Assembly: GCF_005771405.1 (NCBI RefSeq)
Contig: NZ_VAUA01000001.1
Coordinates: 558,001 to 622,000 of the forward strand
Length of the DNA stretch: 64,000 nt
Source of the DNA: Parasedimentitalea maritima
GTDB lineage: Bacteria > Pseudomonadota > Alphaproteobacteria > Rhodobacterales > Rhodobacteraceae
Direction: 5' to 3'
This document shows, in pieces, positions 32,982 to 49,558 of the stretch. A program made the translations under genes and the position numbers. Within the stretch, counting starts at the first letter, position 1. Each line of letters starts with the position of its first letter. The notes below the pieces were generated by a model. It did no database searches. It was not told the origin of the DNA and saw only the letters and a program-made list of their open reading frames with translations.

Positions 32982-33461
32982 TTAGGCTGCCCTGTAGAAC
33001 AGGTAACGCTCGGGCGGAATGCTCTCAGGTGCCTTCAGGGGTTCAAACCCCACCAGTGGCTGACCTGAAACAATGATCCCACCCGGTGCCATGACGGCAG
33101 CGATGGTGGGGGACAGGCGCGCGGCTTCAGCGACGTCCTCTTCCTTCACACCAAAGCCAAAGTCATAATGTGCCAGTGCCATTTTGTGACCCTGTTCTGC
33201 CAGTTGTGCCATCATCGGCTCGGCCTCGCCCTGCAAGAAGTTTTCCTTGGGAGGCACGCAGGAGGGGTGGCATTGCAGAACACGGTCGATCACCCAAACG
33301 CGACGCTCAGGCAGGACCTCACGCAGGTGGTCATAGGTGCGGCCATTGCCCAGCCCCATATCCAACACATCTCCGTCCTGCGTTGATATCTGTTCGGCAG
33401 CCCAATTCAGCCCATCGCGCTGGGCGGTAAAGCGGCGGAGCATAGAATCCAGTCGGCTCAT
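32982..33461 (-). CDS. small class I SAM-dependent methyltransferase-like protein (operon gene 7)
   Basis: 159 residues. SAM motif I is DVLDMGLGNGRTYDH (GLGNG at 36-40), with an acidic residue ending beta-2 (VWVIDR). Later text AVMAPGGIIVSGQ fits motif III. It is shorter than most class I methyltransferases and lacks an obvious substrate domain. Its paralogue lies at 49826-50314 with the same LGLGNGRTY core. Last gene of the seven-gene glycosyltransferase operon; its ATG overlaps the stop of the deacetylase-like gene by 4 nt. It may methylate the sugar product, or have lost catalysis. Confidence 0.8.
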   Translation of the reverse strand: MSRLDSMLRRFTAQRDGLNWAAEQISTQDGDVLDMGLGNGRTYDHLREVLPERRVWVIDRVLQCHPSCVPPKENFLQGEAEPMMAQLAEQGHKMALAHYDFGFGVKEEDVAEAARLSPTIAAVMAPGGIIVSGQPLVGFEPLKAPESIPPERYLFYRAA

Positions 33462-34219
33462 ATCAAATTCCTTGTGTCTAAGGTCCAGGGGCAGGCTGGG
33501 CCAGCCATCAGGCGCGCGATCAGCGCCTCGGTAACGCGCCAGATCTCGGCGTCATGAACCAGATGATGGGTCAGAATACCATAGGGTTCTGTGTTATCAG
33601 CCCGTCCTAAGCGGCGGGCATTCAGCTGTTTGGTTGCCTGATCCAGCAGCTGTTGCGGCGGCACCACCGAGCGGCTGCCTTTCCAGTGGATCGGGTCCAG
33701 ATGGGTGTTGATCTGCGCCAGCCCTTCGGCAGCGAGCGGAGCTGTGCGCGGGGTAAAGGTCGATAGCGCAGTAAAGCCAAGGCCGGGAAGCTCCTGAACC
33801 ACTTCGGCGGCGATCCGGTTCCAGGGGGGCACAAACATCGGGACCAGTTCCGGCCCAAACAACTTCTGCAGGTTGCGCAGTCCCTGGCTAGCGTCTTTTA
33901 TGATCTCATCAACCGGGCGATGCGCCCCAAATTCGGCCTTTTTCTCACCCTTCGGAGCGTGGCTGAGATGGGCCCACCCATGCACCACCGGGATTAGCTG
34001 AGTGGTCTCAGTCAGATAGTCAGCAAGCGTTTTGGTTGCGCCCTTCGGGATCACTGCCAAATGTACGGGCAGACCCAGTTTGGTTGAGAGGGCGGTCAGC
34101 TGATCCAGTTCTGCGGTGGGAGCAATCGCGTCATCATCGCGCCACCACAGCGGCAATGTCAGACCCTGATCCACCCAAGTCTGCAATTCTTGATCCAACG
34201 CGGCCCAGTCAGTACTCAT
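33458..34219 (-). CDS. polysaccharide deacetylase-like protein (operon gene 6)
   Basis: 253 residues. The NodB-type features are LWWRDDDA near residue 25-31 (catalytic/metal Asp) and the metal motif H-x3-H in VVHGWAH (H80, H84), then VPPWNRI, equivalent to the R-x-P-W/Y motif of deacetylases. No signal peptide, so it acts in the cytoplasm, unlike cell-wall deacetylases. It likely removes an N- or O-acetyl group from a sugar intermediate made by the glycosyltransferases of this operon. Coupled by ATGA overlaps on both sides. Confidence 0.82.
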   Translation of the reverse strand: MSTDWAALDQELQTWVDQGLTLPLWWRDDDAIAPTAELDQLTALSTKLGLPVHLAVIPKGATKTLADYLTETTQLIPVVHGWAHLSHAPKGEKKAEFGAHRPVDEIIKDASQGLRNLQKLFGPELVPMFVPPWNRIAAEVVQELPGLGFTALSTFTPRTAPLAAEGLAQINTHLDPIHWKGSRSVVPPQQLLDQATKQLNARRLGRADNTEPYGILTHHLVHDAEIWRVTEALIARLMAGPACPWTLDTRNLI

Positions 34220-35352
34220 GCGCGGCCCTCAGCCATGCCTATGGCGATCTCAACCGCACGGGCAGCGCCGTCAAACTGCAGCTCATTTGTCGCGCGGCGG
34301 GGGGATGTTATGGCGGCGTTAAGGGCTGTGCAGAGGCTCGCTGGTGTCAGATCGCTGCTGCGCAAGACTTCGATGCCGTCCAGAGGGGAAAGGCTCTCAG
34401 CGCGCAATCCCTGCTCAACCTCTTTACCCGCATCAAACGGGATCAGAACGGACGGCGTTCCAGCCTGAAGCAGATCCAGCGCCGTATTGTAGCCGCACAT
34501 ACTGACTGAGGCCGCGGCCAGCGGCAGCATCTGGCGGAAGTCAGGGCGGGCGGCTTCGATGACTGCAGGTGATCCTGTGGCGTTTAGGCGTGCGATCCGG
34601 TCGGTCGCATCGCTGCCACCAACCAACAGACGCCACGGGATATCCGACATCTGCGCGGCAGCAAGCAATGCGGTTTCAAACAGCGCATCACCGACGCTGC
34701 CGCCACCGGCGCTGACCAACACTTCGCCACGCCCAGCATTCAGCGGATGAGGTATCGCAGCGGGTGGGGCAACGTACCCCGTGTATCGCAGCTTGGCGTG
34801 CAACATTTCTGAGACCGGCCAGCTGACTTCAAGCCGGGTGGCGACCGGGTCCGAATGGACCAGCACCGCGTCGTAGAACTCGGCGATCATCGCGTCTGCT
34901 TGTGTGGCCTTTTTGGGCTTAGAAGGCGGTGCCAGAATATCGCGGATTGATGCCAGCACCACCGGGCGACGGGGCTGCGCATGGGCTGTTCGCAGCAATG
35001 CCTGAAACTCGGCAGCGAGACTGCGCCGTCCAAAGGGGTATAATTCAGTGATCAGTATATCCGGCTGCATGTCAGAGAGCGCTGCACAAAGGGCGGTCTG
35101 CCGCCGGGCGTAATACGCGGTCTCTGTGATCGTTCCGGTCTCATCCAGCAGTCGGGTGAAGTCCACTCCGTCAGATCGCAGGGGTGGCAGTTGCAACAGC
35201 TCAACCCCGTCCGTGTTTAGCTGTGCTGCCGGAAACCCACCCGAGGCCACACGGACCTGATGTCCCGCATCGGCAAAGGCGCGGCCCAGCGTCAGCGCCC
35301 GGCTGAGATGGCCGGTGCCTAACAGGTGGGTTACAGCAATCAGAACTTTCAT
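34216..35352 (-). CDS. GT28-like glycosyltransferase (operon gene 5)
   Basis: 378 residues, GT-B fold of the MurG/COG4671-like type. N-terminal MKVLIAVTHLLGTGHLSRALTL carries the G-x-G-H motif; the C-terminal half has VSAGGGSVGD and the nucleotide-sugar site SMCGYNTALDLLQAGTPSVLIPF with the Gln/Glu of EVEQ. It is a distant paralogue of the gene at 38262-39488 (both have TGYL/TGYV and GGYN/CGYN motifs). Probably transfers a sugar or aminosugar from a UDP donor. No membrane segment. Coupled by ATGA overlaps. Confidence 0.82.
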   Translation of the reverse strand: MKVLIAVTHLLGTGHLSRALTLGRAFADAGHQVRVASGGFPAAQLNTDGVELLQLPPLRSDGVDFTRLLDETGTITETAYYARRQTALCAALSDMQPDILITELYPFGRRSLAAEFQALLRTAHAQPRRPVVLASIRDILAPPSKPKKATQADAMIAEFYDAVLVHSDPVATRLEVSWPVSEMLHAKLRYTGYVAPPAAIPHPLNAGRGEVLVSAGGGSVGDALFETALLAAAQMSDIPWRLLVGGSDATDRIARLNATGSPAVIEAARPDFRQMLPLAAASVSMCGYNTALDLLQAGTPSVLIPFDAGKEVEQGLRAESLSPLDGIEVLRSSDLTPASLCTALNAAITSPRRATNELQFDGAARAVEIAIGMAEGRA

Positions 35353-35939
35353 ACGGCAGCTGTACGCTTCGTCAGACGCACTGGTTCTGCGAGGGGGGTC
35401 AGAGTGTCACCATCGATTTCGACAACAAACAGCCGGTTGCGCTTGATTCTGAAGGGGGCGGGGCCGTCAAAGTTCCAGCCATAGGCACGCGCTAGGATCA
35501 TCCGCATAATGCCAATGTGGCAAACTGCGACGGTGTCACGTTGCAGGCTGGCAACCCAAGGGGAGATACGCGCCCAGACCTCTCCCGGCGTTTCGCCATT
35601 TGGCGGACGATAGTCCCAGCCCCATTGTTCAATATCGCGAAACCCGCTGTTGGGGTCCGCCTTTAGGTCCAGCCCATGGGAGCCTTCCCAGTCTCCCCAA
35701 AACATTTCAGTCAAGGCCGGCGCGGTTTGTGGTTCGCGATCTGACACAATGCGGGCGGTTTCCGCTGCGCGCATCAGGGGGCTGGACCACAGGTCCGCGT
35801 GATCCCACGGCGCGGGCAGCGCAAAGGCAGCAAGGTCAGCGCGAGCCTCATCATCCAGTGGAATATCACTGCGGCCCTGAATGCGGCCTGCGCGGTTCCA
35901 GTGAGTGTGACCATGGCGCAAAAGAGCAAGGCGGATCAT
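35349..35939 (-). CDS. histidine phosphatase family protein (operon gene 4)
   Basis: 196 residues. The RHG motif is LALLRHGHTHWNRAGRIQGRSDIPL (phospho-accepting His in R-H-G), with Glu in EMFWGDWEG and the second His in VAVCHIGIMRM. It is a phosphoglycerate-mutase-like phosphatase. Start at 35939 is fixed by the ATGA overlap with the preceding gene. In a sugar operon it probably dephosphorylates a sugar phosphate or a glycosylated phosphate intermediate, like the phosphatases in alpha-ribazole or glucosylglycerol-type routes. Confidence 0.88.
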   Translation of the reverse strand: MIRLALLRHGHTHWNRAGRIQGRSDIPLDDEARADLAAFALPAPWDHADLWSSPLMRAAETARIVSDREPQTAPALTEMFWGDWEGSHGLDLKADPNSGFRDIEQWGWDYRPPNGETPGEVWARISPWVASLQRDTVAVCHIGIMRMILARAYGWNFDGPAPFRIKRNRLFVVEIDGDTLTPLAEPVRLTKRTAAV

Positions 35940-37024
35940 GTGGTAGCCTCCAGAAGGGGGGTAACGGCAGACCAAAACCGCGCAGTTGCGGCAGGTGCCA
36001 AATGAGTCTTGGATATCATCCTACGCGCGGCTGTGCCAAGGCTGGCACGCAGGGCCGGATCGGTCAGAAGGCCAGTAATTTGATGGGCCAACGCCTTTGG
36101 GCCATCCTCGGGTGTTGGGTAGGTGCCGGGCAGTAATACATCCCGCAGGCCCGGCCGATCCTGCGCTACAACCGGCAATCCGTGACCTTGGGCCTCAAGG
36201 TAGACCATGCCAAAGGCCTCGTTCACGCCGGGCCATAGGAACAAGCTGGCATTGGCGTAGGCCGCTGCCATTTCGGTACGGTCCAGTTGGCCCAGAAAGG
36301 TAACGCGCGGGCCAAACGGGGCCATCAGTGTTTCGACCTCGGCACGAGCAGGCCCGTCGCCGGCAATCTGCAAGGACCAATCCCCGGTTAGATGCGCAAG
36401 GGTCTTGGCGATGATCTGGTATGAGGCCAGTTTGTCGCCGCTGCGCATCATGCCTGCGGTCAGCATAGGGCCCGTCAAACGGGCCGCCGACGGAAGCGTC
36501 TCTGTTGGCAAGAAGGGGGGGAAATGCACCAGGTTCTGGTTTTCAAAACGCTCACGTTTCAAGGTGATCAGGTCATTGGCTGTCAGATAGAAAATCACAT
36601 CAGCCGCATCACAGGCCCTATGGGCGGAGGCCGCGAACCCTGCCCATGAGCCGGTTAACCGACTGGTGGCGCGGGTGCTTTCGATCTGTACATAGGGGAT
36701 GTTGCGGGCATGGGCCACGATTGGACCAATCAGGTCTGGGGCCTTGTAGTAGTTGTGGTAGGTGACCCAGAGATCCATGTCTGGCAGGGTGCGGATCAGA
36801 CGATCGGCTTCGGTTTTTGCCTGCGCGTGCAGATCCTCTTGCAAGGCGCGGTCCCCTCGCTTGTCATAGATCTTCAGCTCGGAAACCAGATCAACAGATG
36901 CGCCACCTGCAGCAATAATGGCCATCAGATTGCGCGCCATTTCCCGGTCACCCGACGGCACCGGGTGGTGCGGCGATTTCAGGGGCGCATAAAAGGCAAC
37001 CCGTCGACCCGCCCCTGTGATCAT
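35936..37024 (-). CDS. GT4 family glycosyltransferase (operon gene 3)
   Basis: 362 residues, GT-B fold. The C-terminal donor site has the E-x7-E signature NEAFGMVYLEAQGHGLPVVA and LQIAGDGPARAEVE. The N-terminal acceptor domain starts GRRVAFYAPLKSPHHPVPSGDREMARNL. No membrane segments or signal peptide, so peripheral or cytoplasmic. Retaining transferase using a nucleotide sugar. ATGA overlaps at both ends. Acceptor unknown. Confidence 0.88.
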   Translation of the reverse strand: MITGAGRRVAFYAPLKSPHHPVPSGDREMARNLMAIIAAGGASVDLVSELKIYDKRGDRALQEDLHAQAKTEADRLIRTLPDMDLWVTYHNYYKAPDLIGPIVAHARNIPYVQIESTRATSRLTGSWAGFAASAHRACDAADVIFYLTANDLITLKRERFENQNLVHFPPFLPTETLPSAARLTGPMLTAGMMRSGDKLASYQIIAKTLAHLTGDWSLQIAGDGPARAEVETLMAPFGPRVTFLGQLDRTEMAAAYANASLFLWPGVNEAFGMVYLEAQGHGLPVVAQDRPGLRDVLLPGTYPTPEDGPKALAHQITGLLTDPALRASLGTAARRMISKTHLAPAATARFWSAVTPLLEATT

Positions 37025-38265
37025 TGGCCTGCCAGCATCGCAGTCAGACGTTGGGACAGGCGGGTGATGCCGGGGCTCATACCAAATTCACATTTCAGCC
37101 GGGACAATGCCGCCTCAGCCATCTCAGCCGCCTGATCCGGATGCCGTGCAATTTGCAGCATGGCTTCAGCCAGGCATTCGGGCGCATCATCTGACAGCAA
37201 TCCGTGGGTGCCTGTGGTGATGAATTCTGGGATTGCTGATACTGCGGTGGACAGGATTGGCAGGCGCTGCGAGGCCGCCTCCATCAGCACGTTGGGCAAC
37301 CCATCGCGATCCCCATCACTGGCGATGCGACTGGGCAGGACAAACAGATCAGCTGCGCGCATGGCGGCAATCACCTCTGGCTGGTCACAGGCGCCGCGCC
37401 AGTTGATCCGGTGGTTGATCCCAGCCTTTATGGCCATGTCTTCAAGAGGTGCCTTCAGGTCACCGCCGCCAATATGGGTCCAATGCCAATCCAATCCCTC
37501 GGGCAGCAACGCGAGTGCGGCAATTAAGTTGTCAAAGCCCTTCTTCTCAACCAGGCGCCCGACTGACATCAGATGCAGCGGATCACCCGCCTTGCGCCAG
37601 ACCCGATCCGGCGCGGCGGGAAATCGGCCCAGATCAAGGCCATGGTAAATCAGGTCAACGCGGGTTGGATCGTCCGACATCTCTTGCAGATGTTTGGCGC
37701 CAAACCCAGTGCAGGTTGCCCCAAAGGCCGCGCCATGATGGGCACTGGACAGTTTTTCTGAAATCTCCCAATCGGGTGAGGTCCAGATGTCTTTGGCATG
37801 GGCTGAGAAGCTCCATGGCAATCCGCGTATGATAGCGGCGTAGCGTGCAACCGATGACGGCGTGTGAAGGAAATGCGCGTACATGCCCAGCACTGCATCC
37901 GGCATTTCAGCTGCCAGGACACAGGCCTGCCCAAACCGGCGAATGCGATTATGGGAGGGGTCGCGTTTCAGGTCGGTGCGCCAGATCCTGTAGGCTTCGG
38001 CATAGCCGGGCAGGGTCTGCGCTACATTTCGTGCACGCCAGACCCGGTCCGGTTCCTGATACAGATATTCGGGCAGGTAATTTACCTGTGCCTGCAACTG
38101 GTCATGTAACGGATGGCGTTTGACGTCGGTGGGATGACGGAGTGACCAGATCTCAAAACTATGTCCGGCTGCTTCCAGCGCGACCAGTTCCTGCGCGATA
38201 AATGTTTCGGACAGGCGCGGCCAGCCCTTGACCAAAACCGCTAGCGGCGGAGATGTATTGCTCAT
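37021..38265 (-). CDS. GT4 family glycosyltransferase (operon gene 2)
   Basis: 414 residues. N-terminal VLVKGWPRLSETFIAQELVALEAAGH is typical of GT4 enzymes of the capsule/exopolysaccharide and colanic-acid type. The donor domain has MSVGRLVEKKGFDNLIAAL, IGGGDLKAPLE and DGDRDGLPNVLMEAASQRLPILST, the E-x7-E region with Asp at the first acidic position. A middle region rich in aromatic residues replaces membrane anchors. Second gene of the operon with ATGA overlaps on both sides. Confidence 0.88.
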   Translation of the reverse strand: MSNTSPPLAVLVKGWPRLSETFIAQELVALEAAGHSFEIWSLRHPTDVKRHPLHDQLQAQVNYLPEYLYQEPDRVWRARNVAQTLPGYAEAYRIWRTDLKRDPSHNRIRRFGQACVLAAEMPDAVLGMYAHFLHTPSSVARYAAIIRGLPWSFSAHAKDIWTSPDWEISEKLSSAHHGAAFGATCTGFGAKHLQEMSDDPTRVDLIYHGLDLGRFPAAPDRVWRKAGDPLHLMSVGRLVEKKGFDNLIAALALLPEGLDWHWTHIGGGDLKAPLEDMAIKAGINHRINWRGACDQPEVIAAMRAADLFVLPSRIASDGDRDGLPNVLMEAASQRLPILSTAVSAIPEFITTGTHGLLSDDAPECLAEAMLQIARHPDQAAEMAEAALSRLKCEFGMSPGITRLSQRLTAMLAGQ

Positions 38266-39488
38266 TCTGTCGTCTCTTGTTGGGCACTGGCAAGCAGGCT
38301 TGCGACACGGTTGGTGACATAGTCCAACCCGTCAAGCAGCCCATCTGATATGGCCGCTGAAGGTGGCTTTTGCTGATCCAGTGCCCGAATGGCGCGGATC
38401 ATCGAGTCGGCGGTCATGCCATCGCGTTCTTCGTCCAGCATAGCAATCAGGCCCAGCTGCTCAGCACGGCTTGCACGGATCCATTGCTCCAGACGTGGCG
38501 TGGTGCGCGGCACTATGACTGCGGGTTTGTCAAACGAGAGCACTTCACAGAAGGTGTTGTACCCCCCCATGCAGACCACACTCTGCGCTCCAGCAAACAG
38601 GGTTTCGATCTTGGATTCAAATCCTACGGCAGTGACCCGGCCACTCAGTTGGGCAACACGGGTTTCGAATTGCTCGCGGGTGTCACCGGACAGGAACGGC
38701 CCATAGACCAAAACCGCGCGTGGGTTCAGATCTGGGTCGCGTTCATAGGCGGCCAACACCAGATCCACCATTGCAGCGCCATCGCCGCCACCGCCCGGTG
38801 TGATCAGAATATAGGGTTGTTCGGGTGGTTCGCCCAAAGTGCCAAGATCGCGGCGCAGATAACCAGTGTAATGAGTGCGAGCCTGAACATCTGCGCTAAG
38901 GTCGAGCCCGGATGTTGGGTTATAAATCGAGCGCAGCCCATAGACCCAAAGCTCGTCATAGAAACTTTCGGTGGCTGGGATCGCGCCTTTGCGATGCCAC
39001 TCGGCGGCGAGGACATCGGGTTCGTCCAGCACGTCGCGCAGTCCTAACACCAGGCGCGCGCGACCACGCGATTTAAGCAGATCCAGCGTTGGCAGTAGCT
39101 CTCCGCGAAAGCCGGTTGGTTCTTTGTCAACAATCAGGATGTCGGGGTCATATTGCTCGGCGGTCGAGCGGATCAGTCCAGCACGCAGGTCTGTGGTTTC
39201 ATCAATGCTCATCCCCATGGTGCGGGAGGCATAAGACCCGTCCGAGCGTTTGATAACGCCGGGCAGGCGCACGTGATCAACGCGGGTGGGAAAGGCAAAC
39301 CGGCCTGCCACAGGAGACCCGGTCAGGATCAGGGCCGAGGCGGTGGGGTCGGCGGCGGTGATGGCACCGGCCAGCGCACGCGAACGGCGCAGGTGGCCCA
39401 GACCAAAGGTGTCATGGCTGTACAACATCACCCGGGGCGGGCGTGAATCGTTGGTCGCGGGCGAAATGGTAGGAGTTTGAACTGTCAT
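38262..39488 (-). CDS. GT28-like glycosyltransferase (operon gene 1)
   Basis: 408 residues. GT-B fold of the MurG/COG4671-like type: VMLYSHDTFGLGHLRRSRAL with G-x-G-H, and a C-terminal site LITPGGGGDGAAMVD, then CMGGYNTFCEVLSFDKPAVIVPR. It opens a run of seven genes all joined by 4-nt overlaps. The Shine-Dalgarno is weak. The 426-bp upstream region contains several hairpins and must hold the promoter, back to back with the MscS gene. Probably starts assembly of a glycan or glycolipid; acceptor unknown. Confidence 0.83.
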   Translation of the reverse strand: MTVQTPTISPATNDSRPPRVMLYSHDTFGLGHLRRSRALAGAITAADPTASALILTGSPVAGRFAFPTRVDHVRLPGVIKRSDGSYASRTMGMSIDETTDLRAGLIRSTAEQYDPDILIVDKEPTGFRGELLPTLDLLKSRGRARLVLGLRDVLDEPDVLAAEWHRKGAIPATESFYDELWVYGLRSIYNPTSGLDLSADVQARTHYTGYLRRDLGTLGEPPEQPYILITPGGGGDGAAMVDLVLAAYERDPDLNPRAVLVYGPFLSGDTREQFETRVAQLSGRVTAVGFESKIETLFAGAQSVVCMGGYNTFCEVLSFDKPAVIVPRTTPRLEQWIRASRAEQLGLIAMLDEERDGMTADSMIRAIRALDQQKPPSAAISDGLLDGLDYVTNRVASLLASAQQETTE

Positions 39489-39914: not shown

Positions 39915-42251
39915 ATGACGCATTTGTTTTTTCGTTTTCTGTTGAGTGGCTTGCTGGCAGTGATGCTGGCGGTTCCGTTGGCCTCACCCCTGGCTGCACA
40001 AAGCGATGACGCCAACAGCGCCGAAGCACTAGCCAAGGCTATCGAACTGGCCGCCGACAGTGGCGTTGGTGTTATTGTTCTGGATGGTCGAGGTCAGTTG
40101 GTTGGCGGCAGTGTCGAGGAACCGGGGGCAGGTGAGTCGGCGGATGGGATGGGGGGACCATCTGCGTTGATGCAGGTGCAATCCGAAGTCGACAAGTTTC
40201 GGCAAGAGCTGCGCAGCAGGTTGGCAGCCTTACCCTATGCCAAAGTAGAAGTGGCGTATATTCTGAAACAGACCAGCCCGGACGGGCGCATTCAGACCTA
40301 TCTGGAGATCTTGGGCTGGTCTGTGCTTTTGCTGTTGATTGGTCGTTGGCTCTCCATTGAGATCTACGGCAAACGGATCGCCAAGCGTTTGGTTGTCGGG
40401 CGGGTCAAAGCCGACCCTGAAGGCTATCGCGATAAAATGCCATTCTTGGTGTTTCGGTTTGTCATGGGGATGGGAGCCACCATCTTTGCGATGATTTTTG
40501 CGGGGCTGGCGGGCTATCTTATTTTTGGACCCGCTGAGGACAGCTCGGTTAAATTTACTGTTACAGCGGTTTACACAGCCTATTTTCTGGCCTGCACCGC
40601 GTCAGACCTGTGGCGCATGGTGCTTTCCCCCTATCTTAGCCAGTACCGTATTCCGGTTTTCTCAGACCGGGATGCCAAACGCCTGTATCTTTGGGCCTCC
40701 ATTTTGGCGACCTATGATATTTGTTCGATCCTGTTTGCCACCTGGGTTGGTGATTTTGGCCTGAACTATAACTTGTATGCCTTGGTGCATGGTGTGCTGA
40801 CGCTGGTCGCGACCATCGGCAATCTGGCAATGGTTCTTTTCAATGCCCGCGCTATTACCAATGCGATCCGCGCCGGGAAGCCAAAGGCTGAATGTAGCTG
40901 GCTGGTGCAGGGGTTAAGCACCATCTGGGCCCCACTTGTGATGGCCTATATGGTGTTTGGCTGGCTGAACCTGGCGTTTGATCTGGTACTGGAACGCGAA
41001 GCTCCGATCCCATTGATGGTGGGAACCTATATGGTGCTGACGTTGATCCTGATTGTTTACGGGGTCATAAACTATGTGATCGAACGCTTCTTTGACCGGT
41101 CGCGTCAGGTGCAACAGTTGAACGAGGAATTGGCCGAGGCCGAGGGCATGGAAGTGATGCCCATGGATGATGATATGCGGCCAGCCCGTCCGGTGCATCC
41201 GATTGCCACGTTTGAGGATCTGGCACGCCGGGTGGCAGGTATTCTGGCTTTTGTGGTCGGGGGCTTTGCGCTGATCCGGGTTTGGAATCCGGATGTAAAC
41301 TGGATGGCTGACTCGGTTGGTGAAAGAGTGACGGACGTTATCTCTATCCTGTTCATCGGCTATATCATTTATCACCTGTTCCGGATTTGGATCGACAGCA
41401 AAATCGCCGAAGAGACGGTTGATACGGAGGATGGTGAACTCGGCGATGAGGGGGGCGAAACAGGAGCCAGCCGGTTGGCAACACTGCTGCCGTTGTTTCG
41501 GGGGGCAATTCTGGCGGTTGTTGTGGTCTCCATTGGTCTAATAGTGCTGCTGGAGCTGGGCATCAACGTCAGCCCGCTGTTTGCGGGTGCAGGTGTGGTT
41601 GGTCTGGCCATCGGCTTTGGTTCGCAGACTCTGGTGCGTGACATTTTCTCAGGCGCGTTCTTTTTGGTCGATGATGCATTCCGCAAAGGCGAATACATCG
41701 ACATTGGTGATGTGAAAGGCACGGTTGAAAAGATCTCGGTCCGGTCGTTCCAGTTGCGGCACCATCTTGGCGCGCTGCAGACCATTCCCTTTGGTGAAAT
41801 CCGGGTGTTGACCAACTATTCCCGCGACTGGGTGATCATGAAACTGCCGTTGCGGGTAACCTATGACACCGATGTCGAAAAAGTACGTAAGCTGATCAAG
41901 AACCTGGGCAAAGAGCTGCTGAACGATCCGGTGATTGGCGATAACTTTATCCAACCCCTGAAATCGCAGGGCGTGATTGAAATGCAGGACTCTGCGATGA
42001 TCATCCGGGTCAAATTTATGACCAAACCGGGTGATCAGTGGCTGGTGCGCAAGAAGGTCTACGAAGAAATCCGTCAATTGTTCGAGCGCGAGGACATCCA
42101 TTTTGCCCACCGTGAGGTCACTGTACGCCTGGCCGAAGGTAAACCCGAGGATCTGAACCAGAAACAGAAAGAGGCGGTAACCGGTGCGGTGCAGGCTGCG
42201 ATGGATGGGGATTTGCTGGACGAAGGTGGCGGAGCTGGCGACGATCGCTAG
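39915..42251 (+). CDS. large mechanosensitive channel of the MscS family
   Basis: 778 residues. Signal peptide at 1-29 (LLAVMLAVPLASPLAAQ), a periplasmic N-terminal part, many hydrophobic helices from about 135 to 520, then the MscS core: pore helix LFAGAGVVGLAIGFGSQTLVRD (about 555-577) and the beta domain FRKGEYIDIGDVKGTVEKIS. The C-terminal vestibule domain follows. It resembles MscK/YbdG-type multi-helix channels that open on hypo-osmotic shock. ATG 39915 is chosen because it starts the signal peptide; the in-frame extension to 39654 is unlikely. Inner membrane. Confidence 0.9.
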   Translation: MTHLFFRFLLSGLLAVMLAVPLASPLAAQSDDANSAEALAKAIELAADSGVGVIVLDGRGQLVGGSVEEPGAGESADGMGGPSALMQVQSEVDKFRQELRSRLAALPYAKVEVAYILKQTSPDGRIQTYLEILGWSVLLLLIGRWLSIEIYGKRIAKRLVVGRVKADPEGYRDKMPFLVFRFVMGMGATIFAMIFAGLAGYLIFGPAEDSSVKFTVTAVYTAYFLACTASDLWRMVLSPYLSQYRIPVFSDRDAKRLYLWASILATYDICSILFATWVGDFGLNYNLYALVHGVLTLVATIGNLAMVLFNARAITNAIRAGKPKAECSWLVQGLSTIWAPLVMAYMVFGWLNLAFDLVLEREAPIPLMVGTYMVLTLILIVYGVINYVIERFFDRSRQVQQLNEELAEAEGMEVMPMDDDMRPARPVHPIATFEDLARRVAGILAFVVGGFALIRVWNPDVNWMADSVGERVTDVISILFIGYIIYHLFRIWIDSKIAEETVDTEDGELGDEGGETGASRLATLLPLFRGAILAVVVVSIGLIVLLELGINVSPLFAGAGVVGLAIGFGSQTLVRDIFSGAFFLVDDAFRKGEYIDIGDVKGTVEKISVRSFQLRHHLGALQTIPFGEIRVLTNYSRDWVIMKLPLRVTYDTDVEKVRKLIKNLGKELLNDPVIGDNFIQPLKSQGVIEMQDSAMIIRVKFMTKPGDQWLVRKKVYEEIRQLFEREDIHFAHREVTVRLAEGKPEDLNQKQKEAVTGAVQAAMDGDLLDEGGGAGDDR

Positions 42252-42354: not shown

Positions 42355-43698
42355 TCAGAGCCAGATTGCGCCGGATGTACCAAGTCGGCTGGCGGGAAGG
42401 TCCCATGACATCGAGGTTGTGGACAGCGACAGTGGGGCGGTCAGGCGCTGACCAATCCCCCAGCCACTGTGTTCGGGTAGGGTCGCAAAGTCGCTATTCT
42501 GCGCGGAGGTGATATCCGGGCCTACCGCATCTTTTGACAGATCAGCCAGCAATGCGGCGGTGCGCGCAAGCGACAGGCGCGCCTGAGGTACTGGGTTTCC
42601 CTGAGTGGCAGCTGTCAGGGCAGACAGGACAGTAGCGGCCATCAGATACCCGGTTGCGTGATCCAACGCCTGTACCGGTAGCGGTGTCGGGGTGTCGGAA
42701 CCGGACCAGCGACGCCCGGCATCCGCAATGCCACTGCTCATCTGGACCAAGCTGTCAAAACCACGTCGGTTTGCCCAAGGCCCACTCCAGCCATAGGCAT
42801 TCAGGGTGACCTCAATCAGGTTCGGAGCAAGTTGACCGCGGGCTTCCAGATCATAGCCCAACCCATCAAGTGCGCCGGGGCGGTAGCCATGCACCAACAC
42901 GTCGGCATTGGCCAGAAGGGTTTCAAATGTGCGGCGGTCCTGTGCATGGCGCAGATCAAGATAGGTGCAACGTTTGCCCAGCGAAATATCGGGGATAACG
43001 CCCGGTTCATCCCAACCGGGCGGATCAATCCGCAGCACCTCTGCGCCAAACCCAGCCAGAGTTCGGGTTGCAATCGGGCCGGCCAGAACACGAGTCAGGT
43101 CAAGCACGCGCAGACCAGCCAATGGTCGTTCTGCGGTGGCTTGCGGTCGGGGGCGCAGAGCAATGGTGCGTGGCGCTACCCAGTCGATCAAGGGGTCTGA
43201 GGTGACGGCCTGACCTTGAGCGTGCGCCAGCCAATCAGACTGGGAGCGCATGGCGGCGGCAACACCACCACTGTCGACAATGGCGCCTTCCAATGCGTCC
43301 CCTTGCCATTTGCGCACTGCGGTGGTCACGGCATCCCGGGTATTTGCGCAATCAAGCACCCGCAAAGCCGCGGCACGGTGATGGGGCAGGTTGGTGTGTA
43401 GGCGTATCCAGCCGTCAGCGCATTGATAGTTCCCGGCGATGGCGTCCCACAGGCTGGGCATGTCCCACCCGCTGGGACGGAAGCTGTAGCCATACCACAG
43501 CGATGCGAGGCGCTGATCAACCGTGATCTGCGGTTGCTGTTTGGCAAGGTCCAGAGCCCGTATCAGCCCCGCCAGTTCTGATCCGACTGCAGCCAGCGAG
43601 GCCGTGGCCAGCTCTGTCACCGCAAAGGCGCTGGGAAGTTGGCCTGACCCGGTAACCTTGTAGGTCGCAGGGTCAGGTAGGGTGCGCAGCAGGGTCAA
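42355..43698 (-). CDS. CaiB/BaiF family CoA-transferase
   Basis: 447 residues, class III CoA-transferase. The family core is LAGLRVLDLTRVLAGPIATRTLAGFGAEVLRIDPP, then GKRCTYLDLRHAQDRRTFETLLANADVLVHGYRPG. In most members this block is N-terminal; here about 190 residues precede it, so this is the longer, apparently two-part type. Moves CoA between carboxylic acids. Its ATG overlaps the stop of the ABC permease by 4 nt, so it is co-translated with the importer and probably activates the imported acid or its breakdown product. Confidence 0.88.
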   Translation of the reverse strand: MTLLRTLPDPATYKVTGSGQLPSAFAVTELATASLAAVGSELAGLIRALDLAKQQPQITVDQRLASLWYGYSFRPSGWDMPSLWDAIAGNYQCADGWIRLHTNLPHHRAAALRVLDCANTRDAVTTAVRKWQGDALEGAIVDSGGVAAAMRSQSDWLAHAQGQAVTSDPLIDWVAPRTIALRPRPQATAERPLAGLRVLDLTRVLAGPIATRTLAGFGAEVLRIDPPGWDEPGVIPDISLGKRCTYLDLRHAQDRRTFETLLANADVLVHGYRPGALDGLGYDLEARGQLAPNLIEVTLNAYGWSGPWANRRGFDSLVQMSSGIADAGRRWSGSDTPTPLPVQALDHATGYLMAATVLSALTAATQGNPVPQARLSLARTAALLADLSKDAVGPDITSAQNSDFATLPEHSGWGIGQRLTAPLSLSTTSMSWDLPASRLGTSGAIWL

Positions 43699-44849
43699 TG
43701 CTGGTACGGGTCAAGACTGTCGCGCAGCCCATCGCCAAGGAAGTTGAAGGCCAAAACCACGATAATGATCGGTAGCATTGGGATGGCGGTCCAGGGGTAG
43801 ATCTCGATCGAGGCGAGGTTCTGGGCGTCATTCAGCATAACTCCCCAACTTACCGCCGGCGCCCGCAGGCCAAGGCCAAGGAAAGACAGCGCTGTTTCGC
43901 CAAGGATCATTGCCGGAATCGACAGGGTCGCTGATGCTATCAGATGTGACATGAAATTGGGCAGCATGTGTTTGCGGATGACCCGACCGGGGCTGGCCCC
44001 CATCATTTCGGCGGCGCGGACATATTCCTCTTCGCGCAGGGACAGGAACTTGGCGCGTACGGAACGCGCTAAGCCGGGCCAGTCCAGAATGCCGAGAATC
44101 ACCGAGATGATGAAGAACACCGCCACTGGTCCCCAGTTTGACGGCACCGCCGCGGATAGGGCTAACCAGAGTGGCAGCTCTGGCAGCGAGCGCAGAATTT
44201 CAATCACCCGGTTGATGCACCAATCAATTCGACCGCCGAAGTAGCCGGCAATTGATCCAAAGGTGATGCCCAGCAGGAACGACACGGTGATGCCGATGAT
44301 GCCCACGGTCAGGGACAATTGTGCGCCGTATAAGATACGGCTGAACACGTCGCGCCCTAACCGGTCAGAGCCCCATAAGAAAATGGTGGCATCACCGGGC
44401 GCGCAGAACAGGTGGGTGTCTGTGGGGATAAGCCCGGCCAGATAGTATTCTTTACCCTCACAGAAAAATTCAAGTGAGGCGGGATTATCGGTGTCGGGCA
44501 CGAACTCCCACTGGAAGGTTTCCAGGTTGGCCTCGGATGTCATCGGATAAACATAGGGGCCGATGAATTCACCCTCGTGGAAAAAATTGATCGATTGTGG
44601 CGGCGAGTACAGGTGATCAGGGTGGCGTTCATTGGCGGTGTAAGGCGCGATGAAGCCGGCAACGGGCAGCAACGCGTAGCTGATCAGGAGGAAAATACCT
44701 GAGACCAAGCCCAGCTTGTGGGTCTTGAACTGGCGCCAGATCAGTACCCAGTTGGGGGCGTCCAGATCTGTGCGCTCAAGCTGTTGCAGTGAAACGTTGG
44801 CGTCATATGGGGCGTCGTCGACATAGCGGCCATCAGGAAGTTGGGTCAT
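43695..44849 (-). CDS. ABC transporter permease (YejE/DppC-like)
   Basis: 384 residues. C-terminal BPD_transp_1 domain with the EAA-type loop EEEYVRAAEMMGASPGRVIRKHMLPN and FLGLGLRAPAVSWGVML, typical of oligopeptide permeases. Between the first helix and the permease domain is a periplasmic insert of about 130 residues containing two cysteines (EFFCEGK and LFCAPGD), as in YejE-type proteins. Overlaps the preceding permease and following CoA-transferase genes by 4 nt each. Inner membrane. Confidence 0.92.
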   Translation of the reverse strand: MTQLPDGRYVDDAPYDANVSLQQLERTDLDAPNWVLIWRQFKTHKLGLVSGIFLLISYALLPVAGFIAPYTANERHPDHLYSPPQSINFFHEGEFIGPYVYPMTSEANLETFQWEFVPDTDNPASLEFFCEGKEYYLAGLIPTDTHLFCAPGDATIFLWGSDRLGRDVFSRILYGAQLSLTVGIIGITVSFLLGITFGSIAGYFGGRIDWCINRVIEILRSLPELPLWLALSAAVPSNWGPVAVFFIISVILGILDWPGLARSVRAKFLSLREEEYVRAAEMMGASPGRVIRKHMLPNFMSHLIASATLSIPAMILGETALSFLGLGLRAPAVSWGVMLNDAQNLASIEIYPWTAIPMLPIIIVVLAFNFLGDGLRDSLDPYQH

Positions 44850-45874
44850 GTCTCACGCCCCTCATATCGAATGCGGGGATCGAGCAGCACCAGCAGCACG
44901 TCTGAAATCATTGTGCCCATCAGCGTCAGCAAGGCGACGAACATCAGCACAAAGGCCGACAGGAACAGGTCCTGTGTTTTAAGCGCGGTCAGCAGTGTGG
45001 GGCCGATGGTTTGCAGGCCCAGCACCACCGAGACCAAAACAGAACCGGAAACCATCGAAGGCAGCAGGTTCCCGATATCGGCGACAAAGGGATTAAAAGC
45101 CATGCGCAGCGGGTATTTGGTCAACATTCGGGCCGGAGCCATGCCTTTGGCCACAGCTGTTTCCACATAGGGCTTGCCCAGCTCATCCAGAAGGTTGGCA
45201 CGCAGGCGTTGCATCATGGCTGCGGCACCGGATGTACCAATGACAAAGGTGGGAACAATCAGGTGGATCAGAATCGACTTGGTTTTGTCCCAGCTAAGCG
45301 GTTCGCCCTCGTAGATCGGGTCCATCAAACCGCCAATGGGCAGGTCGAAATACTTGTGCCCATAGTAGAACAGGATCAGCGCCAGAAGAAAGTTGGGGGT
45401 CGCAAGCCCAAGATAGCCGACAAAGGCCGAGGTGTAGTCAACCCATGTGCGGGATCGCGCGGCGGCGATGACACCCAGCGGCAATGCGACAAGATAGACA
45501 AACAGCACCGCAGCCAGATTGACCAGCACGGTCAGCCACAGGCTGTCACCGACGATTTCGGCGACCGGTTGGTCAAACTCAAACGACCAGCCAAAATTAC
45601 CCTGGATCAGGCCGGAAAAGCCGTGCGGGCCGGGGATGAAGCCAACCCAGATCAGGTATTGCTGATACAGCGGACGGTCGAGTGCGTATTCTGTGCGCAG
45701 AAATTCGGCCTTGGCCACGCCCGCAGATTGGCCTGAGGCCCGCAGTTCTGCGATCTGGTTGCTGAGATAGTCGCCGGGAGGCAGGTTGATGATGGCAAAA
45801 ACCATCACCGACACCACCAGCAGCGTTAGCAGCATGGTGCCAAACCGGTAGATCGCGTAGCGCAGGATCTCCAT
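44846..45874 (-). CDS. ABC transporter permease (YejB/DppB-like)
   Basis: 342 residues. N-terminal IYRFGTMLLTLLVVSVMVFAIINLPPGDY is the signature of DppB/YejB permeases, and the EAA loop reads LLDELGKPYVETAVAKGMAPARMLTKYPLRMA. A loop after helix 1 carries the conserved Asp/Gln-rich part (LDRPLYQQYLIW). Start overlaps the binding-protein stop by one base. Pairs with the next gene to form the pore for a peptide- or opine-like solute. Confidence 0.93.
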   Translation of the reverse strand: MEILRYAIYRFGTMLLTLLVVSVMVFAIINLPPGDYLSNQIAELRASGQSAGVAKAEFLRTEYALDRPLYQQYLIWVGFIPGPHGFSGLIQGNFGWSFEFDQPVAEIVGDSLWLTVLVNLAAVLFVYLVALPLGVIAAARSRTWVDYTSAFVGYLGLATPNFLLALILFYYGHKYFDLPIGGLMDPIYEGEPLSWDKTKSILIHLIVPTFVIGTSGAAAMMQRLRANLLDELGKPYVETAVAKGMAPARMLTKYPLRMAFNPFVADIGNLLPSMVSGSVLVSVVLGLQTIGPTLLTALKTQDLFLSAFVLMFVALLTLMGTMISDVLLVLLDPRIRYEGRET

Positions 45875-47793
45875 CAGCCGTCACCACCCTCAAAGAAAAA
45901 CTCATCCGGACGGTGGACGCCAAAGTGAGCCCCCGGTTCCCAGGCCCAGATGCCTTTGGTTGGGACGTTGCGCAGATTTTTGTTGACCACGACGGGCTGC
46001 GGCGCGCCGGCCAGAATACCGATACCGTAAACCTGTTCCGAGTGGATCTTGAGCATCTCTTCCCAAGCCGCGGTGCGTTCCGCATCCGAAGTGGCGATTT
46101 CCCAATTGTGGAACAGCTCCATCAACCGTTGAGCTTCGGGTAAGTCTGGTGTTTCGCCAGCTTCACCACCGGTCTGATAGAACTGACCCCATTTAGGCCA
46201 TGCCAGAAAGACTTGATCCGTTGGCGCCAGATAGGAGGGAGACGTATAAGACTGCGGTAGCCCGTTGTCCCAGCCGAACCAGACCGAAGCCATGGAGGTG
46301 CCAGAGAACACCCGATTGCGCAGAATGTCACGGTCCAGCGGGCGCATGATCAGTTTGACACCGACATCACGCCAGTCATCCGTGATGATCTGCAGGGCGT
46401 TTTCAACCTCTTGACGTTCCCCGGCGGTCTCGATCACAAACTCCATTGGGCGTCCATCAGGTAGCTTGCGGATGCCGTATTTGTCTTTTCCGGTCAGGCC
46501 GGCCTCGTCCAGCAGGCTGTTGGCCATTTCCGGATCCCAAGAGGCCCAAGCTGCACGCAGGTCGGCATCAAAGAAAGGGCTGCTTTCGAGCACAGACATG
46601 GCGCCTGGTTTGGCAAGCTTGAAGTACAGAGCCTTGTTGATGGAGTCGCGGTTGATTGCCAACGACAGGGCGCGGCGGACCCGGACATCGCGGAGCACTG
46701 CGCGCCAAGTATCGTCATTTACGTTCAGGTTGGGATAGATGGCGATTTGTGATGCGGTGCCAGTGCCCCAAAGGTAGGTTTCATAGTTGCCACCATCTGC
46801 CTCACCTTTGCGCAAGATAGCGATATCGCGAAAGCCCAGGCCGCGCGCCTGCAAGTCAGCCTCGCCTGCGTTGGATTTGGCGGCGACCAGCCCGCCAGAC
46901 ACGATCTCCATTTCGACCACATCAATGTAAGGCAGCTGTACGCCGTTCTTATCGATGCGGTGATAGTAGGGGTTGCGCACGAACATGTGGCGAATTTTTT
47001 TGCCCGAGGTGGAGTTCATCCAGGGCTGCAAAGTTGGCAGCTCGTGGTTGTCGAACTTGTACATGTTGTCGCGTCTGTTGTGCAGTGCGGCCCAGCTTTT
47101 GACGCGGGCATCATCCACTTCAAACGCCAGCTGCTCCGGATCGGCGTAATCAGCGTGATACTTTTTCAGGAACTCTGACGGGCGGAAAATAAAGGGCGGG
47201 CGGGCCTGTGCAAGACTTTGCAGAAAGTTGGGGTTAGGGTTATCCCATTCATAGATAACAGTCTGCGGGTTGGGAAAACTGACGCGGGGAAATTCGCCCT
47301 CGATGCGCAGAAAATCAGGCGGCCCGGTGGGGCTGAGCAGGGCATTGTTGGCAACATCATTCCACCAGTATTCAAAATCTGCCGAAGTAAAAGGACTGCC
47401 GTCGGACCATCGGTGGCCGGGGCGTAGATTCAAGGTAAAGCGGCGGTTGTCCTCGTTTTCAAACGACATCAACAGATCGGGGCGCAGTTCGTAATTGGTG
47501 TCATACCCGACGAGCCGCGCATAACCATAGACCACCATTTGACGGATGTCTTTGGAGCGCGTGATCATGGTATTCAGAGTACCACCCTGTACCCCCGGTG
47601 TGCGATCTCGCGCGGCCAAGTCGACCATAAGCGGTACTTCGGGGACGCGATCAGCGGCGGCGGGCAGATTGCCGGCATCTACTTCCTGACGCCAGAAGTC
47701 ACTTTCTTGTATATCGGGTGCCGCTAAGCTGCTTAGCGGAGTCATCAGCGCCGCAACGGCCAGTGCGCAAATGGATTTTGGGAAATTAAACAT
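45874..47793 (-). CDS. ABC transporter substrate-binding protein, family 5 (YejA-like)
   Basis: 639 residues. Signal peptide FNFPKSICALAVAALMTPLSSLA, then a SBP_bac_5 domain with LRPGHRWSDGSPFTSADFEYWWNDV and DVRVRRALSLAINRDSINK, both family hallmarks. It is longer than DppA and matches the YejA type in having an extended N-terminal stretch (residues 25-70). Start 47793 follows from the signal peptide; its start codon overlaps the ATPase stop by 8 nt. Binds a peptide or other solute in the periplasm; ligand unknown. Confidence 0.92.
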   Translation of the reverse strand: MFNFPKSICALAVAALMTPLSSLAAPDIQESDFWRQEVDAGNLPAAADRVPEVPLMVDLAARDRTPGVQGGTLNTMITRSKDIRQMVVYGYARLVGYDTNYELRPDLLMSFENEDNRRFTLNLRPGHRWSDGSPFTSADFEYWWNDVANNALLSPTGPPDFLRIEGEFPRVSFPNPQTVIYEWDNPNPNFLQSLAQARPPFIFRPSEFLKKYHADYADPEQLAFEVDDARVKSWAALHNRRDNMYKFDNHELPTLQPWMNSTSGKKIRHMFVRNPYYHRIDKNGVQLPYIDVVEMEIVSGGLVAAKSNAGEADLQARGLGFRDIAILRKGEADGGNYETYLWGTGTASQIAIYPNLNVNDDTWRAVLRDVRVRRALSLAINRDSINKALYFKLAKPGAMSVLESSPFFDADLRAAWASWDPEMANSLLDEAGLTGKDKYGIRKLPDGRPMEFVIETAGERQEVENALQIITDDWRDVGVKLIMRPLDRDILRNRVFSGTSMASVWFGWDNGLPQSYTSPSYLAPTDQVFLAWPKWGQFYQTGGEAGETPDLPEAQRLMELFHNWEIATSDAERTAAWEEMLKIHSEQVYGIGILAGAPQPVVVNKNLRNVPTKGIWAWEPGAHFGVHRPDEFFFEGGDG

Positions 47794-49558
47794 GGCAACG
47801 TACCTTATGTCCGGGTTCCACCTGTACCAATGACGGTATCTCGGTGTCGGAAAAACGAAAATGATCGGGCCAGCTTTCGGGCGAGCCAGCACCCAGGGCC
47901 ACCAGCTTGAGATCAATAGGACGGTCAATGTCCGGCTCGGGCTGAGCAGCAATCAATGCTTTGGTATAGGGGTGTTTTGGGTTGTGGAACAATGTGTCCG
48001 GCGGTGCTTGTTCAACCACCAATCCGGCCCGCATCACAGCCACTTCGTCCGCTATCCGGGCGACGACAGCGAGATCGTGACTGATGAACAGATAGGACAG
48101 ATTTTTGCGGTCACGGATGTCTTCCAGCAATTGAAGAATTTGTTCTTGCACAGAGACGTCCAAGGCCGAAGTCGGCTCGTCACAAACCAAAAGCGACGGG
48201 TCTAGCATCAGCGCCCGGGCAATTGACAATCTCTGGCGCTGGCCACCGGAAAAGGCATGCGGATAGCGTTGCAGCATGTCTGGATCAAGCCCTACCAACC
48301 GCAGCATGTCAGCAGCCTTGTCGCGGCGTTCGGGTTTGGAGCCGATGCCATGGATATCAAGGGGCTCAACCAACGCGTCAAGAATGCGCATCCGTGGTGA
48401 CAGGGATGAATAGGGATCCTGAAACACCATCTGCGCCTCGCGCTGGAACGCAGTTCGGGCAGCGCGCGACATGTGATGCACACCAATGGGGTTGGAATGT
48501 GATGTGGCGCGGAACAGAACCTCACCACCCTCGTCGGGCAGCTCCGCCCCCAATGCGATCCGTGCTGCGGTGGTTTTCCCCGAGCCACTTTCGCCTACAA
48601 TCGCCAATGTCTTACCGCGTTGTAGCGAAAAGTCGACGCCGCGGCAGGCTCGGATTTTGGCCTCAGCCTTCCAGCTTTTGCCTGCGCGCATTGAATAGGT
48701 TTTGGAGACGGATTTCATCTGCAGGATCAGATCGTCCAGTGGCAGCTCTGGAGCGCTCTCCGGATTGGCCGGGATGGCTGGTGCAGCGTCAAATAGTTGC
48801 TGAGTGTAGGCATGCGCAGGGGAGCGCAGCAGCGGCTCGGCTGCTCCGGACTCCATCACCTGGCCTTTGTGCATCACCACAACCTGTTCGGCCATATTGG
48901 CCACAACGCCCAGATCATGGGTGACCAGGATCATCGCCATACCTGTGTCGCGTTGCAGTTCTTTCATCAGCCCCAGGACTTGGGCCTGCGTCGTGACATC
49001 CAGTGCAGTTGTTGGCTCGTCCGCGATCAACAAGTCAGGTTTAGCGACCATGGCCATGGCAATCATTGCGCGCTGACGCATACCACCGGACAGTTCAAAC
49101 GGATAAGACCTATAGGCGCGTTCTGGGTCCGGGAAACCGACACGCTCAAAACACTCCAGCACTTCTTTACGGGCTGCAGCCTCGCGGGTTCGTCCATGTA
49201 GCCACAGCACTTCGGAGACCTGATTGCCAATCCGGTGTAGCGGCGACAGTGATCGCATCGGCTCTTGAAAGATCATCGAGATTGTATTGCCGCGCACGTT
49301 TCGCATTTGACGTTCGCTGAGTGTTGACAGTTCTTGCACGCCGTTGCTGCCATTCAACCGGACGGTGCCAGAATGAATACGAGCAGCGCGTGGCAGGATC
49401 CGCAAAACGGCCCGGCAGGTCACTGTTTTGCCTGAGCCACTTTCGCCAACCAGCGCCAGCGTCTCACCAGGGTTCACCTGAAAACTGACATCACGGACCA
49501 CAGGCTCACCAGCGCCAAAGCCAATGCTGAGATTTTCTACTGATAGCAAAGGCTGCAT
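47786..49558 (-). CDS. ABC transporter ATP-binding protein with two fused ATPase domains (YejF-like)
   Basis: 590 residues with two complete nucleotide-binding domains. First: Walker A GESGSGKTVT, signature ELSGGMRQR, Walker B LLIADEPTTALD. Second: Walker A GESGSGKTTA, signature FSGGQRQR, Walker B LLVCDEPTSALD. Each is followed by the oligopeptide-ABC C-terminal piece (HAYTQQL and HPYTKALI). It is the first gene of the importer operon, an order unlike the usual binding-protein-first layout. Energises the permeases encoded downstream. Confidence 0.94.
   Translation of the reverse strand: MQPLLSVENLSIGFGAGEPVVRDVSFQVNPGETLALVGESGSGKTVTCRAVLRILPRAARIHSGTVRLNGSNGVQELSTLSERQMRNVRGNTISMIFQEPMRSLSPLHRIGNQVSEVLWLHGRTREAAARKEVLECFERVGFPDPERAYRSYPFELSGGMRQRAMIAMAMVAKPDLLIADEPTTALDVTTQAQVLGLMKELQRDTGMAMILVTHDLGVVANMAEQVVVMHKGQVMESGAAEPLLRSPAHAYTQQLFDAAPAIPANPESAPELPLDDLILQMKSVSKTYSMRAGKSWKAEAKIRACRGVDFSLQRGKTLAIVGESGSGKTTAARIALGAELPDEGGEVLFRATSHSNPIGVHHMSRAARTAFQREAQMVFQDPYSSLSPRMRILDALVEPLDIHGIGSKPERRDKAADMLRLVGLDPDMLQRYPHAFSGGQRQRLSIARALMLDPSLLVCDEPTSALDVSVQEQILQLLEDIRDRKNLSYLFISHDLAVVARIADEVAVMRAGLVVEQAPPDTLFHNPKHPYTKALIAAQPEPDIDRPIDLKLVALGAGSPESWPDHFRFSDTEIPSLVQVEPGHKVRCHV

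Follow-up and report, generated by a model that had tools for sequence, protein, structure and literature searches.

The described systems that come closest to the locus considered here are the acidic capsules of the Vi antigen type, which depend on an ATP-binding cassette (ABC) transporter and are encoded by tviBCDE-vexABCDE, and the Opp-type importers with cluster C solute-binding proteins (SBPs), represented by SPH1118 and AgpA; Yej is another Opp-type importer for comparison. The locus itself is a seven-gene operon (genes A to G, minus strand) in a stretch of 64,000 nucleotides from Parasedimentitalea maritima (assembly GCF_005771405.1, contig NZ_VAUA01000001.1, positions 558,001 to 622,000), hereafter the window. 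We give an even chance to the reading that these seven genes supply the synthesis for a larger system, spread through the Alphaproteobacteria as a class, whose product would be an acidic glycan with uronate residues and which would also handle this glycan across the inner membrane. Besides the operon, the system would include an Opp-type importer and an ABC-exporter-like membrane protein (X), both of which are encoded in the window.

As in the Vi-type capsule loci, GT4 glycosyltransferases (GTs) and an ABC protein are present; in part of the relatives, though not in the window operon, the GT genes also have beside them a dehydrogenase gene that resembles, below the curated cut-off, the one for the UDP-N-acetylglucosamine (UDP-GlcNAc) 6-dehydrogenase TviB. 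However, the ABC protein found here, X, lacks the ATPase motifs, and an Opp-type importer, a histidine phosphatase, a CE4-like protein without signal peptide and a PF12692 methyltransferase are added to the set. TviC-like and VexA/C/D-like genes, a periplasmic adaptor and an outer-membrane exporter were not noticed in the layouts, no model search having been aimed at them. Compared with type IV (MsbA-like) ABC exporters, X shares the ABC_membrane domain and differs by the loss of its nucleotide-binding motifs. The importer is built like those with cluster C SBPs, with a protein of the SBP_bac_5 family, a dual ATPase and two permeases, but unlike these it is genetically tied to glycan synthesis, with a polysaccharide lyase gene alongside in Sinorhizobium.

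A simpler relative is carried by Escherichia plasmids. In record NZ_AP025748.1 (9998-20176) the genes for a GT28 and two GT4 transferases are followed by those for an ABC exporter, two phosphotransferases, an alginate export protein and a nucleotide-sugar dehydrogenase. The first 6 kb of this cluster are near-identical in 18 of 5426 E. coli genomes, always on plasmids, and A-like genes were found in 10 Escherichia plasmid records. The cluster shares with our locus full-length relatives of A and B (33% identity) and the presence of an ABC protein and a nucleotide-sugar dehydrogenase, the latter being of the UDP-glucose type. In contrast to our locus, its ABC exporter keeps intact motifs, it has an annotated alginate-export gene, its second GT4 is only weakly similar to C, and no importer, D, E, F or G is annotated in the stretch read. 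Closer orthologues of A and B (43% and 49%) are the genes named redA and redB in the record of Rhizobium etli CIAT 652 (CP001075.1, 19992-22481), which are accompanied by an importer, X, a protein binding cyclic nucleotide monophosphates (cNMPs), a UDP-glucose dehydrogenase and adenylate cyclases. In the open-licence literature we found no publication under the names redA/redB and no description of the cluster, most queries having required several exact terms together. This agrees with an earlier sequence-only reading of the window, which knew of no described pathway with this set.

The same reading had described seven genes on one strand, joined by ATGA overlaps at all six junctions, and a scripted check returned exactly this arrangement (-4 with an ATG start at 38262-38265, 37021-37024, 35936-35939, 35349-35352, 34216-34219 and 33458-33461). 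The families it had named were borne out by Pfam for A, B, C, D, E and G, and by conserved motifs for F. Gene A (38262..39488, 408 residues), the first of the operon, encodes a GT28/MurG-like glycosyltransferase, for which the COG4671-type label is that of the sequence-only reading; its mean column identity is 62% over 13 aligned orthologues. Gene E (34216..35352, 378 residues) encodes a second GT28-like transferase, and both match the GT28 C-terminal domain slightly above the cut-off of 22 bits (27 bits for A, 28 for E). Genes B (37021..38265, 414 residues) and C (35936..37024, 362 residues) encode GT4 glycosyltransferases that match Glycos_transf_1 at 93 and 73 bits, respectively. Among the window proteins and 20 relatives, B carries DGxPxxxxEA in all 21 sequences and EGxP in none, and the GT4 pattern E-x-[FL]-G-x4-EA is met in only 13 of 21 for C. 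Gene D encodes a histidine phosphatase (35349..35939, 196 residues; His_Phos_1, 127 bits; RHG pattern in 20 of 21 sequences); its start is the ATG at 35939, and a longer frame with a TTG start (to 35975) appears only in the mechanical listing of open reading frames (ORFs). Gene G (32982..33461, 159 residues) encodes a small S-adenosylmethionine (SAM) methyltransferase (Methyltransf_17, PF12692, 252 bits) that is related to the solved structure 3iht and keeps the SAM motif in 18 of 20 sequences.

Gene F (33458..34219, 253 residues) gave nothing above the cut-off in the Pfam search. The motifs RDDD, HGxxH, PPWNR and LTHH are invariant or nearly so among 15 aligned orthologues, and each of the four metal-site patterns is met in 21 of 21 sequences (window and 20 relatives). 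We take these motifs to be the Asp-His-His metal site of CE4/NodB deacetylases, and F thus has the sequence features of a CE4/NodB-like deacetylase with a full metal site, here without an apparent signal peptide. A profile search found no solved relative of either A or F. No membrane segment appears in any of the seven proteins in a crude hydropathy scan. Together, these data indicate that the operon is real and conserved and that its products are glycan enzymes, apparently located in the cytoplasm.

The sequence-only reading had proposed a check of gene order across Rhodobacterales, the order of the window. Among 20 loci fetched from this order, A-B-C-D-E-F is kept in all 20 and G is present in 19 (the exception, L050, has no G match). 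Overlaps, too, are conserved in relatives: a -4 start with ATG or GTG is possible at 99 of 119 junctions, though only 6 of the 20 loci have it at all six, and L033, which is among these 6, shares 95-100% identity with the window. The 4-nt overlaps mark a tight operon and are unremarkable in themselves. A wider set of 80 named loci comprises the best A matches of a longer list, and shares some genomes with the unnamed loci (e.g., L045 and L194); among the matches listed, the best named ones are from Phaeobacter, Roseobacter and Leisingera. In the 59 named loci with full flanks the layout is ABCDEFG in 45, ABCDEF in 12 and another in 2, so that the A-F order is met in 57 of 59. Azospirillum lipoferum has the -4 spacing at four of five A-F junctions, and rhizobia depart from the A-B-C-D-E-F order.

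The sequence-only reading had further regarded the seven genes as a complete route in itself, free of transport. This part was not borne out: in a sample of 289 Alphaproteobacteria the genes co-occur with the Opp-type importer and X, often in one neighbourhood. Its remark that no flippase is present holds for the seven genes, as none of the encoded proteins matches a flippase or polymerase family in profile library scans, and fails for the window, where the co-occurring transport genes lie about 4-20 kb away. All four of A, E, X and SBP were found in 85 of the 289 genomes, at least one of them in 101 and none in 188. Taken singly, A is present in 93 genomes at 1e-40 (70 of 224 genera), X in 96 at 1e-30, and SBP in 93 at E<=1e-60, of which 91 were counted as strong (G250 and G424 dropped); E has a strong match in 95, by our own cut of better than about 1e-18, and any match at 1e-3 in 147. 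Fisher p values for the co-occurrence range from 9e-58 to 8e-64 and ignore shared ancestry. Within Rhodobacterales (196 genomes), F was found in 56 genomes (22 of 87 genera), X in 57 and both in 55; F stands without X in G138 and X without F in G110 and G141, and G184 has only a weak X match. The operon is thus not the whole unit, because importer and X co-occur with A and E and are frequently linked to them, and on the strength of this co-occurrence across 289 genomes we rejected a lone operon with mere synteny.

Linkage is tightest in Azospirillum lipoferum 4B, in which twelve co-directional genes form one run, G-X-ATPase-SBP-permease-permease-A-B-C-D-E-F. In a distant sample of 20 stretches of 19 kb, taken from 19 other alphaproteobacterial genomes chosen by E (L091 and L092 are from one genome), all of A-F were found in 13, X in 14, SBP in 15 and H, a protein of ~170 residues with two hydrophobic segments, in 15; genes missing from such a stretch can lie elsewhere in the same genome. 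Five rhizobial loci (L197-L201) have A, B, E, X and the cNMP protein together, mostly with the importer, and C and F nearby in four of the five (not in the L201 stretch). One of them, a Mesorhizobium variant cluster (L197; NZ_CP021071.1, 4297-29173), is surrounded by four adenylate/guanylate cyclase genes and includes MBL-fold and DUF3095 genes. A was found in genera as different as Ruegeria, Azospirillum, Rhizobium and Sinorhizobium. In a sample of the phylum, A is present in 17 of 239 genomes, one of which lies outside the class (G567); in the stretch concerned, genes resembling A and B are found together with an E-like match and with similarity to the ABC exporter of the Escherichia cluster.

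In the window, the importer is encoded on the minus strand by a dual ATPase (47786..49558, 590 residues), the SBP_bac_5 protein (45874..47793, 639 residues, start inferred) and two permeases in the OppB (44846..45874) and OppC (43695..44849) positions, the latter with ~100 residues between its first two hydrophobic segments. The last gene of this importer operon, a CaiB-type CoA transferase (42355..43698, minus strand), has a 4-nt overlap with the permease gene and was detected in 22 of the 59 full-flank named loci. Solved or described relatives of the SBP are 5ipw (oligopeptide, putative), SPH1118 (pectin) and AgpA (alpha-galactosides).

Protein X (56754..59798, plus strand, 1014 residues) is an ABC-exporter-like transmembrane protein fused to a cNMP-binding domain. 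The window copy matches the ABC_membrane domain (PF00664) at 68 bits and has no PF00005 match at E<=0.01. We compared 46 X sequences, the window copy included, some of which are near-identical, some second-copy paralogues and one short. Strict Walker A, Walker B and LSGGQ motifs are each absent in 46 of 46. The aligned Walker A lysine is K in 14 and R in 21 sequences, and a K followed by S or T is never found; likewise, at Walker B, D is never followed by E. From the Q-loop to the signature position there are 326-362 residues, versus 57 in one exporter whose motifs are intact. Conservation is highest in the membrane half, with 31 of 39 invariant columns before residue 335 (45 sequences). In an AlphaFold2 model of X (39 sequences, pLDDT 82.8, pTM 0.70), residues 17-335 form membrane-type helices, an insert of some 330 residues, mostly helical, interrupts the nucleotide-binding domain, and the C-terminal part, to which Pfam assigns the cNMP domain, is rich in beta structure. 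In the window copy, the phosphate-binding cassette of this domain reads GELGLIRKEPRS; what we take to be the cassette pattern is found in 15 of 24 fused and 19 of 22 separate cNMP copies (34 of 46), two of the separate ones being cut off by the end of the fetched stretch. In some second copies the cassette has degenerated, and Azospirillum has a changed form of it. Adenylate cyclase genes lie within the clusters of Mesorhizobium, Sinorhizobium and Rhizobium.

As all 46 sequences are devoid of the strict Walker A, Walker B and signature motifs, ATP hydrolysis seems unlikely and X probably does not work as an ATP-driven pump, although copies with GK may still bind ATP. In many genomes of Rhodobacterales X is accompanied by another copy, about 50% identical, and some show shorter matches (about 40-44%) that are confined to the membrane half.

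What the product might be is suggested mainly by the genes linked to the operon. A nucleotide-sugar dehydrogenase gene lies directly 5' of A, on the same strand, in 17 of the 80 named loci, separated from the first candidate start by -4 to 48 nt. L152, too, has such a gene, whose frame is interrupted. Three A-linked dehydrogenases that were tested score 462-496 bits against the model of TviB, the Vi-antigen UDP-GlcNAc C-6 dehydrogenase (cut-off 592), and 143-164 bits against that of AglM, a UDP-glucose dehydrogenase. Among the Rhodobacterales genomes, a TviB-like gene (E<=1e-90) is present in 41 of the 56 with F versus 18 of the 140 without. The 14 closest TviB-like genes (>=66% identity) are all about 6 kb from F, and those at 54% in G064 and G153 likewise lie within 6 kb of it. 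In rhizobia, six plasmid clusters include a gene annotated as a nucleotide-sugar or UDP-glucose dehydrogenase; the one tested (L198) is not of the TviB type. Sinorhizobium clusters also include a polysaccharide lyase, which belongs to PF14099 in the one tested. A glucuronan product was considered on account of this lyase and left as a thought, the lyase having no solved relative.

SPH1118 is reported to prefer acidic sugars and to bind them through residues that include Arg57, Arg438, Arg466, Arg496 and Trp594 (PMC9314435). In an alignment read by eye, the window SBP has equivalents of Trp594, Arg438 and Arg466, and thus shares these ligand residues with SPH1118 only in part. An SPH1118-like specificity was considered and finds partial backing in these residues; the idea of an acidic glycan rests mainly on gene linkage. 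Taken together, the linked dehydrogenase, the simpler Escherichia relative and the pectin-type kinship of the SBP point to an acidic oligo- or polysaccharide. We infer that it bears uronate, and that it is exported and then re-imported.

A possible course of events would be as follows. A, B, C and E would use UDP-sugars, a UDP-(N-acetyl)uronate among them, to make an oligosaccharide or short repeat; D, if the locus has it, would take phosphate off an intermediate, F would de-N-acetylate sugars in the cytoplasm and G would methylate the product. The product would then cross the inner membrane, with X acting under cNMP control, as conduit, scaffold or regulator and not as a pump driven by ATP, and the Opp-type importer would retrieve it or its fragments. 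A more specific version holds X to be a former exporter that no longer hydrolyses ATP and serves as a cyclic-nucleotide-controlled conduit or platform for a self-made amino-uronate oligosaccharide, which a dedicated Opp-type importer takes up again, in an undescribed cycle of making, release and recovery that is governed by a second messenger and ancestral to much of the Alphaproteobacteria. This version we consider unlikely as a whole.

Several observations weigh against the reading as an exported and recovered acidic glycan. The window operon has no dehydrogenase gene, the only TviB-like match of the source genome (55%) sits in another surface-polysaccharide locus, and 15 of the 56 genomes with F have no TviB-like match at E<=1e-90. 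The best-scoring PDB relative of the SBP is 5ipw, named as an oligopeptide protein; of the SPH1118 residues, equivalents of Arg57 and Arg496 are missing from the window SBP and Arg438 is not kept in the SBPs of L091 and L096 (both by eye). The CoA transferase of the importer operon is unaccounted for by a glycan substrate. Neither a glycan polymerase nor an outer-membrane exporter was noticed in the alphaproteobacterial clusters, in which no model search for them was made. The gene set is not fixed: the five rhizobial stretches gave no match to D, and that of L197 none to the importer. Finally, X and a cNMP-binding protein are found together in G110 (C12:178398-180992) and G141 (C1:956482-959130), in the latter also with an MBL-fold gene, and these fetched stretches (L225 and L226) contain no GT genes; X may thus have a role wider than the glycan system.

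Among the alternatives, the one that survives best follows the sequence-only reading: a small soluble or lipid-linked glycoside would be assembled, dephosphorylated, deacetylated and methylated in the cytoplasm and stay inside the cell, and importer and X would be mere neighbours. All seven proteins look cytoplasmic and none gave a match to a flippase or polymerase family; besides, the combination of phosphatase, deacetylase and methyltransferase resembles small-molecule pathways, such as that of mycothiol. However, the co-occurrence with importer and X is near-complete in the 289 genomes and the Azospirillum cluster is contiguous, which argues against mere neighbourhood, and the simpler Escherichia relative has a gene for alginate export as well as an ABC exporter whose motifs are intact. 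We therefore regard an intracellular glycoside as doubtful.

Somewhat less probable still is an osmoregulated periplasmic glycan, an anionic oligosaccharide under cNMP control that the importer would recover and for which an MscS channel would relieve osmotic stress. In the window, an MscS-type mechanosensitive channel gene (39915..42251, plus strand, start read from the sequence) is divergent from the operon. All 20 fetched loci have such a gene close to the operon, as do 52 of the 59 full-flank named loci, and Sinorhizobium, which belongs to another order of bacteria, has one there too; the adenylate cyclase genes of the rhizobial clusters would also fit. On the other hand, the 20 distant stretches (L084-L103) yielded no MscS match, and the Azospirillum cluster has none annotated.

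An ordinary ABC-dependent exopolysaccharide or capsule locus, with its other export genes elsewhere in the genome, is about as improbable as the periplasmic glycan: B has EpsE (exopolysaccharide) as its best NCBIfam model and a likeness to WcaL, both far below cut-off, and the Escherichia cluster looks like a compact exopolysaccharide locus, but X, the only recurrently linked exporter-type ABC protein, lacks ATPase motifs, genes of the Kps, Wza or AlgE kind were not noticed among the clusters examined (no model search being made), and capsule loci, to our knowledge, usually have no Opp-type importer.

The gene set is present in about a third of the sampled alphaproteobacterial genomes, in which its members are annotated no more specifically than as glycosyltransferases, as ABC transporters with or without the label 'oligopeptide', and as a 'multidrug' ABC protein. 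If the reading as an acidic glycan system is true, these genes would point to a glycan of the surface or periplasm that has gone unrecognised in marine and plant-associated bacteria, assign a function to a family of ABC-like proteins that lack ATPase motifs, and tie cyclic-nucleotide signalling to glycan traffic.

Some minor observations concern single genes of the operon. Upstream of A, an ORF at 39485-39805 also overlaps it by 4 bases; we read this as chance, because the equivalent site of TM1040 carries no annotated gene. The source genome has a second F-like deacetylase gene (C21:260582-261310, 39%) beside a GNAT-type gene and ~7 kb from a GT25-like ORF, both by our own reading. A second pathway around it was considered and rejected, given that among the searched window genes only F and a weak CaiB match were found in its 19 kb. 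Two F matches are also present in 11 other Rhodobacterales genomes. Finally, copies of A at 62-76% identity to that of the window occur in records titled Nocardioides, Granulosicoccaceae and Chromatiales (L118, L160, L165, L167), which are perhaps mislabelled or misbinned.

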